Shown piece after piece: positions 26,437-31,121 of a DNA stretch of 64,000 nt. Positions within the stretch are counted from its first letter, which is position 1, and every line of letters starts with the position of its first letter. The notes under the pieces were generated by a model, which was not told the origin of the DNA, did not search any database, and saw nothing but the letters and a program-made list of their open reading frames with translations. The translations under genes and the position numbers were made by a program. The stretch is taken from contig NZ_JAQOUE010000001.1 in assembly GCF_032191465.1 (NCBI RefSeq), forward strand, positions 248,001-312,000, written 5' to 3'. This stretch comes from Candidatus Nitronereus thalassa (lineage in GTDB: Bacteria > Nitrospirota > Nitrospiria > Nitrospirales > UBA8639).

Positions 26437-27020
26437 AGAAACTTTCCAGTGCTGGCGTGCCCTTAAGCCCTAGGACAATTGCTTGTATTTTGGATGTAAT
26501 AGGATCTCATGCGTTAACCATGTCCTTGCCAAACTATTAATGGAGTCAAAAATGGGGGCAAAGAGTGAGCTCTGGCAATGGAATTTTCGGTTTGAATGTG
26601 AAAGGACTTTATTTTTAACTGTCAGGGTATTGTTCTCCTAGGGAATCTCGTACTCCAGGTATTGAAATACGTGAAAGGTTTTTTTCAAAGGGAATGAATA
26701 CTTAATTAAGTTTGGAGGTCATTTGAGTTAAAGAACGCCATGAATTGATAGAGAATTTACAGCAAGAAAACCGGACAAATACATCATTTTTACCTAGGGT
26801 GAATGCTAATCAAGGGAAGGCAAAATCAAGCCGATAGGAGTACAGAAGCGAGTGATGTTGAAGCGATTTTCTTGAGCCTGAAAATTTTAATTAAAGCTCT
26901 AAGCCTTATCCTTTTATTTGTCTCTTCAAAGATGGTCTAGGTGGGACGCAAGGTTTTAGAAGGGCAAACCGATAGCAGAATTGGATGCATTAGTACGAAA
27001 TTAATAGTGAATCGAGAACT
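26437..27020. other. Divergent intergenic region between arabinose block and Tad locus
   Basis: This stretch holds no supported gene and must carry promoters for both the minus-strand glycan block and the plus-strand riboswitch/Tad transcript. No clear sigma-70 or sigma-54 pair could be identified. Fragments resembling aptamer elements (GGGACGCAAGG at 26943-26953, GGGCAAACC at 26962-26970) occur in the wrong order and may be a decayed aptamer or chance. Confidence 0.5.
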
Positions 27021-27021
27021 C

Positions 27022-27110
27022 CTTCTCGAAATGGCAAACCTGTCGTGAGGCAGGGACGCAAAGCCACGGGTCAGAAGAATTTCAGCTGACAGCCGGGTTG
27101 TCGAAGGAAG
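27022..27110 (+). promoter_or_regulatory. c-di-GMP-I (GEMM-I) riboswitch aptamer 1
   Basis: The aptamer core is clear: ATGGCAAACC (27031-27040), a P2 stem CCTGTC/GGCAGG closed by a GTGA (GNRA) tetraloop, GGGACGCAAAGCC (27053-27065), a P3 stem and AGCCGGGTT (27091-27099). The flanks CTTCTCGA and TCGAAGG close P1. The base matching Vc2 G20 is G, which fits c-di-GMP rather than cGAMP selectivity. It lies 59 nt upstream of an ORF with a strong ribosome binding site. Confidence 0.92.
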
Positions 27111-27139
27111 GGATGCAGTGCCACCCATAGGGATGGAGT

Positions 27140-27163
27140 TCTCCTGCTTGCTCTAAGAGGAGA
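27140..27163 (+). promoter_or_regulatory. Putative Shine-Dalgarno-sequestering hairpin of riboswitch 1
   Basis: TCTCCT (27140-27145) is the exact complement of AGGAGA (27158-27163), which contains the ribosome binding site of the ORF starting at 27169. A competing GGAG (27135-27138) upstream could capture the anti-SD strand. This layout fits translational control by the aptamer just upstream. Confidence 0.6.
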
Positions 27164-27168
27164 TTTCT

Positions 27169-27672
27169 ATGACCACTTGGTATTGGTTGCTGCCTGAAGA
27201 TAATCCATGTGAATCCCACAATAATCAGTGGAAACACTCCTCTTCTCTAAGCTCCATCATTACATCGAAATATTCTGTTTTGAAGCCATGGGTTCTTGTT
27301 AAAGGTTCCCAACGGCATTGTGCGCTACTCTCCCAAAAATATTTAAAAACAGGTCCTTTCCTAGAAGTAAATAAACGTAAATCCAATCTTTCAGATTACG
27401 GTTCCTTTGGTTTTGGCTGTGGAGTAAGAAGCACTGGCATCGTTCCTCCGCGGGGCCATAAATCCTTTGCTCAGCCAGCCCCTCGGGAAGTGGAACCCCA
27501 GTCTAGTAGCAAGCGAGATTTGTGCTGGCAACGTGAACATCTACTATTGACATCAAAACATCTTCCTAGTCGGGCTCCCCTTCCCGATAAAGGCAAACCT
27601 GTCGTGAGGCGGGGGCGCAAAGCCACGGATCAGGTCAGCGATCTGAAAGCCGGGTTGCCGGAGGAGGAATAG
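27169..27672 (+). CDS. Riboswitch-controlled ORF of unknown function, reads through aptamer 2
   Basis: The ORF has an excellent start (AGGAG, 6-nt spacing, ATG) directly behind riboswitch 1. Its 167-residue product is rich in Ser, Lys, Pro and Trp, has no signal peptide, no membrane segment and no recognisable domain. The last ~33 codons are the sequence of riboswitch aptamer 2, and the stop TAG (27670-27672) falls just past it, so the C-terminus is RNA-constrained. It may be a leader ORF whose translation controls folding of aptamer 2, a decayed gene, or a non-coding artefact. Codon usage looks unlike the flanking tad genes. Confidence 0.4.
   Translation: MTTWYWLLPEDNPCESHNNQWKHSSSLSSIITSKYSVLKPWVLVKGSQRHCALLSQKYLKTGPFLEVNKRKSNLSDYGSFGFGCGVRSTGIVPPRGHKSFAQPAPREVEPQSSSKRDLCWQREHLLLTSKHLPSRAPLPDKGKPVVRRGRKATDQVSDLKAGLPEEE
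27572..27668 (+). promoter_or_regulatory. c-di-GMP-I (GEMM-I) riboswitch aptamer 2
   Basis: The core repeats that of aptamer 1: AAGGCAAACC (27590-27599), P2 stem CCTGTC/GGCGGG with GTGA tetraloop, GGGCGCAAAGCCACGG, P3, then AAGCCGGGTTGCC (27647-27658). P1 flanks are pyrimidine-rich CCCCTTCCCG and purine-rich CGGAGGAGG. The position equivalent to Vc2 G20 is G. It lies about 90 nt upstream of the first Flp pilin gene and controls the Tad operon. Confidence 0.92.
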
Positions 27673-27684
27673 GAAAAGGGGATA

Positions 27685-27722
27685 GCCGAGGCTGGTGGAA
27701 ATACGGGCCACCCCGTTTCGGC
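27685..27722 (+). terminator. Hairpin between riboswitch 2 and flp1, possible expression platform
   Basis: GCCGA (27685-27689) pairs with TCGGC (27718-27722), and GGTGG (27694-27698) with CCACC (27708-27712). The following AATATTCTTTATTTAT is AT-rich but not a pure T run. It could act as a conditional terminator or attenuator for the pilin transcript. Confidence 0.5.
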
Positions 27723-27760
27723 AATATTCTTTATTTATCGTGCCCGTGAGGAGATTCGAT

Positions 27761-27940
27761 ATGACGAATTCTGTCATGCAGTTTATTCGGGATGAAGAAG
27801 GGGCTACCGCTCTTGAGTACGGATTGTTGGCTGCTCTTATTGCTGCCGCGATTGTGACAGCAGTGACTCAATTAGGTACCACGGTGTCTAATACCTTCAA
27901 CTCCATTGCCAACGATATGGCGGCTGCTACGGCCAGCTAA
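27761..27940 (+). CDS. flp: Flp-type pilin 1
   Basis: This is the major Flp/Tad pilin precursor, 59 residues. A short charged leader (MTNSVMQFIRDEEG) is followed by the class-defining ATALEYGLLAALIAAAIV. Cleavage by the prepilin peptidase TadV is expected after Gly. The hydrophobic helix packs the filament core, and the Thr/Ser-rich C-terminus (LGTTVSNTFNS, ATAS) is exposed and could be glycosylated. GAGGAG lies 7 nt before ATG 27761, which rules out a longer upstream start. Two c-di-GMP riboswitches precede it and a strong hairpin follows, so it is probably made in excess over the assembly genes. Confidence 0.93.
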   Translation: MTNSVMQFIRDEEGATALEYGLLAALIAAAIVTAVTQLGTTVSNTFNSIANDMAAATAS

Positions 27941-30938: not shown

Positions 30939-31121
30939 ATGGTACAGATTCTAAAATTTTTGACCGATGAAGAAGGAGCGACAGCATTAGAGTATGGACT
31001 TTTGGCAGCCTTGATTGCTGCGGCCATTGTGGCCTCAGTGACAAATCTCGGACAAGTCATCCTTAATGCATTTAATTTTATTACGGCTGCCATGCAAGCG
31101 GCTGTTGGTGGTGGGAGTTAA
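30939..31121 (+). CDS. flp: Flp-type pilin 2
   Basis: This second pilin precursor of 60 residues reads MVQILKFLTDEEG then ATALEYGLLAALIAAAIVAS, nearly identical to pilin 1 through the helix. The exposed C-terminus differs: LGQVILNAFNFITAAMQAAVGGGS, less Thr-rich and ending in Gly. GGAGGAGGGA gives a strong ribosome binding site. It is followed by its own terminator. It may be a minor or condition-specific subunit. No riboswitch was found directly before it. Confidence 0.92.
   Translation: MVQILKFLTDEEGATALEYGLLAALIAAAIVASVTNLGQVILNAFNFITAAMQAAVGGGS

Follow-up and report, generated by a model that had tools for sequence, protein, structure and literature searches.

The flp1 pilin gene of Candidatus Nitronereus thalassa is preceded by two RF03167 aptamers, and an open reading frame of 167 codons lies between and across them. 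We interpret this arrangement as a relay leader of the flp/tad operon that is translated and whose ribosomes would reset the second aptamer and the platform at the flp start, and we assign this reading a probability of about 0.6. Its basis consists of the two aptamers, the ORF, the conservation of its frame, a coding-type pattern of selection, and a pair of mutually exclusive stems. All coordinates refer to the window, i.e., the whole stretch of 64,000 nucleotides that was analysed, and the features are as follows:

26949–26975, plus strand: FliA (sigma-28)-like promoter by sequence, CAAGGTTT-N11-ACCGATAG, diverged from the CAAGTTT(T)...CGATAA of relatives
27014–27022, plus strand: 5' strand GAGAACTCC of the aptamer 1 closing stem (P0), complement of 27135–27143
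27024–27106, plus strand: aptamer 1, c-di-GMP-I-GGC riboswitch (RF03167, 65.5 bits, E 3.2e-13)
27135–27145, plus strand: switching segment, where the P0 3' strand GGAGTTCTC (27135–27143) overlaps the anti-SD sequence TCTCCT (27140–27145)
27158–27163, plus strand: Shine-Dalgarno (SD) sequence AGGAGA of the leader ORF, exact complement of 27140–27145
27169–27672, plus strand: leader (relay) ORF, 167 aa, passing through aptamer 2, ATG start, TAG stop at 27670–27672
27526–27558, plus strand: W120-x3-H124-x3-T128-x-K130 motif of the leader ORF
27576–27582, plus strand: 5' strand TCCCCTT of the aptamer 2 closing stem (P0), within the ORF, pairing with 27676–27682
27583–27663, plus strand: aptamer 2, c-di-GMP-I-GGC riboswitch, fully within the ORF (RF03167, 67.6 bits, E 8e-14)
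27676–27682, plus strand: 3' strand AAGGGGA of the aptamer 2 P0, beginning 4 nt after the ORF stop
27685–27722, plus strand: hairpin upstream of flp, with loop CGGGC at 27704–27708
27761–27940, plus strand: flp1 pilin gene (Flp/Fap; PF04964, 63.3 bits), with tad genes downstream

Both aptamers exceed the RF03167 gathering score of the covariance model (59 bits) and belong to the c-di-GMP-I-GGC class; the ligand is probably c-di-GMP, an assignment taken entirely from Rfam family membership. Downstream of flp1 follow TadE-like genes, a VWA/Tad protein, a second Flp, a prepilin peptidase, CpaB/RcpC, and a secretin. The genome (G000) comprises two contigs and 4.0 Mb, and the named members of its family are Nitrospirota/Nitrospirales MAGs. 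Two more Flp pilin genes are present (30948–31121 in the window and G000:C1:3099613–3099786), one of them in the same tad cluster. Other RF03167 aptamers of this genome stand before other genes (C1:2313702–2313782 and C1:1396125–1396206), as do aptamers at many loci among L031–L096, and Rokubacteria carry many RF03167 copies preceding genes with signal-peptide-like starts.

The initial annotation described an ORF at 27169–27672 whose codons cross the whole of aptamer 2, and this holds: the ORF covers the entire aptamer and stops 9 nt beyond it, 88 nt from the flp ATG and with no stop/start overlap. Its part upstream of the aptamer stays open in 4/5000 dinucleotide shuffles, and the equivalent parts of the relatives G004 and G008 in 31/2000 and 77/2000, respectively. 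The same annotation noted that the SD of the ORF is exactly complementary to an upstream TCTCCT, as confirmed here (27158–27163 against 27140–27145), and proposed that aptamer 1 gates translation, for which the in silico analysis of relatives provides support. At nine loci, GAGTTC lies about 27 nt 3' of aptamer 1, where it completes the GAACTC/GAGTTC core of P0 (9/9) and also contributes to the hairpin in which the SD is sequestered, such that the closing stem and the hairpin are mutually exclusive at every locus. When the P0 3' strand was masked in energy folding as a mimic of ligand binding, the start region was predicted to become more open in 9/9 loci. The folding thus predicts that aptamer 1 is a translational ON switch for the leader ORF at all nine.

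RF03167 searches of 60 relatives and then of 49 genomes of the family revealed three types of leader upstream of flp. Class A (aptamer 1, ORF, aptamer 2, flp) is found in the window, G004, and G008, in three genera, each with two complete riboswitches of the same class in one leader, i.e., a tandem. Class B (G006, G007, G013, G016, G019, and G022) has aptamer 1, the ORF, and flp, without aptamer 2; the nine loci considered above are those of classes A and B. Class C (16 genomes of genus g9, and G009) has a promoter, a short ORF, aptamer 2, and flp, without aptamer 1. The class C ORFs start about 100 nt upstream of aptamer 2, cross it in the same frame in 17/17 leaders, and stop either 51 or 57 nt past it, a difference that is a multiple of three. 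In G008, the ORF crosses aptamer 2 in the frame of the window and ends at the same stop. Comparison of relatives, suggested earlier as a check on the reading through aptamer 2, is therefore mostly favorable (G008 and the 17 class C leaders, in addition to the coding signatures described below), but G004 departs from it, since an additional base immediately upstream of aptamer 2 shifts the frame, and the ORF ends in the TAA of CCCGATAA, where the aptamer begins to fold out of its flank, i.e., at its edge. No stop interrupts the frame between position −57 and the end of the aptamer in 19/20 flp-proximal copies, versus 4/43 other RF03167 copies (Fisher p 3e-11, kinship ignored). The relatives represent one family and are mostly MAGs, and counts of this kind overstate independence.

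Compared between relatives, the leader ORF shows protein-level selection, pN/pS being near 0.5 in its own frame and near 1 in the others. For the 33 codons before the aptamer in class C, the ratio is 0.55 in frame, whereas the two alternative forward frames give 1.16 and 1.39 and an upstream control stretch gives 0.84–0.99; stop codons occur in none of the 17 sequences in frame, and in 15 and 10 sequences in the other forward frames. In neutral simulations, which rest on an estimated tree, a simple HKY model, and four rate classes and serve as guides rather than as exact p-values, a ratio as low was reached in 2/300 runs and all sequences were open in 0/300, the corresponding values for the 19 codons common to classes A and C being 0/300 and 3/300. 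The window and G004 compared over 59 codons give a pN/pS of 0.49, with 24, 17, and 33 changes at the first, second, and third codon positions. Purifying selection on codons and frame-preserving changes were found with G004 and G016 as exceptions. Inside aptamer 2, change relative to control aptamers amounts to 0.36, 0.43, and 0.67 at codon positions 1, 2, and 3, and the depletion at positions 1 and 2 (permutation p 0.029) hints at codon-level selection inside the aptamer without proving it. Because one frame of the GGC aptamer is naturally stop-poor, openness inside the aptamer is by itself weak evidence.

The region between aptamer 2 and flp is also structured. P0 of aptamer 2 is a stem of 7 to 8 bp, or of 5–7 pairs in the class A relatives, and it carries compensatory changes: one pair goes from C-G to T-A in five genomes, and of two further pairs one goes from G-C to T-A and the other from C-G to T-A. 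Aptamer 2 is 81 nt long at 20/20 flp-proximal loci, where other RF03167 copies range from 77 to 100 nt. The loop CGGGC of the hairpin can form a pseudoknot with GCCCG (27742–27746), which adjoins the flp SD, and one compensatory change, G-C to A-T, is seen in G068. This pairing between hairpin loop and pre-SD segment is conserved in the window, L066, L036, L075, and others, and a related GGGCACA/TGTGCCC pair is present even without aptamer 2. The class A ORF stops just 5' of the P0 3' strand and the class C ORFs in the 3' arm of the hairpin, so that a terminating ribosome would cover P0 in class A, and the hairpin and pseudoknot in class C. Energy folding of the aptamer 2 platform was discarded as an indicator of the sign of the effect on flp, as the predicted openness of the flp SD changes in opposite directions in different genomes. 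An intrinsic terminator after aptamer 2 was likewise rejected, since the window has only a T-rich stretch and no clean terminator and none was seen by eye in relatives, which favors a translational platform for aptamer 2.

With respect to transcription, the leaders of G004 and G008 match the FliA-like pattern exactly, and the search of the genome of the window for the exact pattern gave zero matches at zero mismatches. The sigma-28 assignment of 26949–26975 is made against the E. coli FliA consensus. FliA-like promoters of the form CAAGTTT-N10/12-(C/T)CGATAA occur upstream of flp leaders of classes A, B, and C. CAAGTTT(T)..GTCGATAA is located exactly at −131 from the aptamer in 13/17 class C leaders. 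In most of the class C leaders, the ATG of the ORF follows the −10-like GTCGATAA by a few bases, and the message may for this reason be leaderless or nearly so. The genome also encodes a second FliA/WhiG-type sigma factor (G000:C1:732134–733117; L182:1459–2485, minus strand; TIGR02479, 205.9 bits), with a c-di-GMP-I riboswitch (RF01051, 52.9 bits) about 30 nt upstream. Taken together with the FliA-like flp promoter, this riboswitch suggests that c-di-GMP may act twice on the pilus operon.

As for the peptide, W-x3-H-x3-T is invariant in classes A and C, and kept in 4/6 class B genomes; G007 has it only in a weak form (W...H), and G016 has a stop codon within it. No family match was obtained in Pfam or NCBIfam, and none in a phage collection. 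Matches in Rokubacteria to the peptide encoded by the aptamer were set aside; they are often open in frame, but do not precede flp and do not have W..H..T. The N-terminal ‘TRFW’ conservation in class B was rejected as a protein signal because it is explained by the RNA pairing ATCTTG/CAAGAT. A duplication of a riboswitch and flp unit was also considered, as the SD and ATG contexts are alike (GAGGAGATT..TATGAC), but the ORF is unlike Flp. The persistence of the motif in genomes without aptamer 2 and the coding-type substitution pattern would both be expected if the ORF were mainly a gene for a small protein acting in trans, its 3' overlap with aptamer 2 being tolerated rather than used. We regard this as unlikely, though it survives best among the alternatives: the conserved core is only about 20 residues and the remainder diverges, AlphaFold gives no fold for the 78-aa form beyond one low-confidence helix (mean pLDDT 56.9), copies have decayed in two genomes, and the ORF is always located in cis upstream of flp, with no whole-ORF match outside these flp leaders among 197 genomes of the order.

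Translation may alternatively serve as protection from Rho only, aptamer 1 turning on the ORF so that transcription reaches flp, and aptamer 2 acting separately. This is a known logic for translational riboswitches, and it agrees with the gating of the SD by aptamer 1 and with the long ORF that follows aptamer 1 in classes A and B, even without aptamer 2. We consider it somewhat less likely still, as it leaves unexplained the peptide motif, the constant length of aptamer 2 (81 nt), and the fact that class C ORFs cross that aptamer in frame in the absence of aptamer 1. Least probable is an ordinary tandem without translation, in which the frame would be open simply because the aptamer has few stops in it and the leader is conserved as RNA: the aptamer consensus favors this frame, which is open within Rokubacteria aptamers too, RNA pairing accounts for the similar N-terminal codons in class B, and tandem c-di-GMP-I riboswitches are common (PMC9481103), but the frame upstream of the aptamer is open in 17/17 class C leaders with a synonymous excess, control aptamers of the same genomes are open in just 4/43 cases, and SD and anti-SD are conserved in nine loci.

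In the relay leader that we favor, a FliA-type promoter would produce the leader transcript, and the ligand, probably c-di-GMP, would close P0 of aptamer 1 and thereby free the SD of the leader ORF. Ribosomes on the ORF would then translate across aptamer 2 and terminate shortly beyond it, or at the hairpin before flp in relatives without aptamer 1. A moving or terminating ribosome should be incompatible with folded aptamer 2, with its P0, or, in those relatives, with the hairpin and pseudoknot; since the two cannot coexist, ribosome traffic would determine whether folding is possible at aptamer 2 and at the start site of flp. The 480-nt stretch, kept translated, would also be shielded from Rho. 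We infer translation itself, the ligand, that aptamer 2 unfolds, and the direction in which flp responds; the conservation of the frame in relatives suggests that ribosomes probably link the two switches physically. More tentatively, and with somewhat less than even odds, aptamer 2 may be dual-coded, both as a sensor and as conserved codons, the ORF allowing the ligand state of riboswitch 1 to cancel or reset riboswitch 2 and giving a non-additive Flp response.

Similar elements are found in other leaders, in different combinations. In leader-peptide attenuators and translational coupling of the trp, mgtCBR, and TopAI-YjhQ type, the position of the ribosome on the leader ORF selects the RNA structure; here, by contrast, the structure that the ORF overlaps is an aptamer for a ligand, and a riboswitch is predicted to gate the ORF itself. 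The B12 riboswitch of Mycobacterium tuberculosis metE has a translated short ORF inside the aptamer, uMetE2, which starts within the aptamer, has about 16 codons, and is poorly conserved, and the ppe2 B12 riboswitch gates a uORF, uPPE2, through which control passes to the gene downstream (Kipkorir et al. 2024, PMC11260477). These leaders are comparable in having an ORF inside an aptamer and a uORF gated by a riboswitch (here by prediction), respectively, but each has one riboswitch and one functional uORF, whereas the present ORF, conserved between genera, begins downstream of riboswitch 1 and extends through all of riboswitch 2. Published tandem c-di-GMP-I riboswitches, which likewise have two aptamers of the same class in one leader, are treated as independent units with a pseudo-cooperative digital output (PMC9481103, PMC12452182), and have no coding sequence through an aptamer; the spacer here is about 480 nt and coding. 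The earlier statement that no such layout is known needs to be narrowed accordingly, as an ORF in an aptamer and a riboswitch-gated uORF have both been published (PMC11260477), but one conserved ORF joining two riboswitches seems to be new. The literature searched, which included few subscription papers, yielded no case of an ORF that leads from one riboswitch across a second.

If the relay reading is correct, selection has acted on a conserved RNA stretch in two capacities, as codons and as an aptamer that binds a ligand, and ribosomes carry the influence of one riboswitch to the other, so that the two are not independent. This suggests a search for coding frames through other aptamers, frames that annotation pipelines discard. 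The arrangement would furthermore provide a model for how tandem switches for the same ligand could yield responses beyond a steeper curve, and a non-additive response to c-di-GMP, if true, could for instance give a pulse or band-pass for Flp pili.
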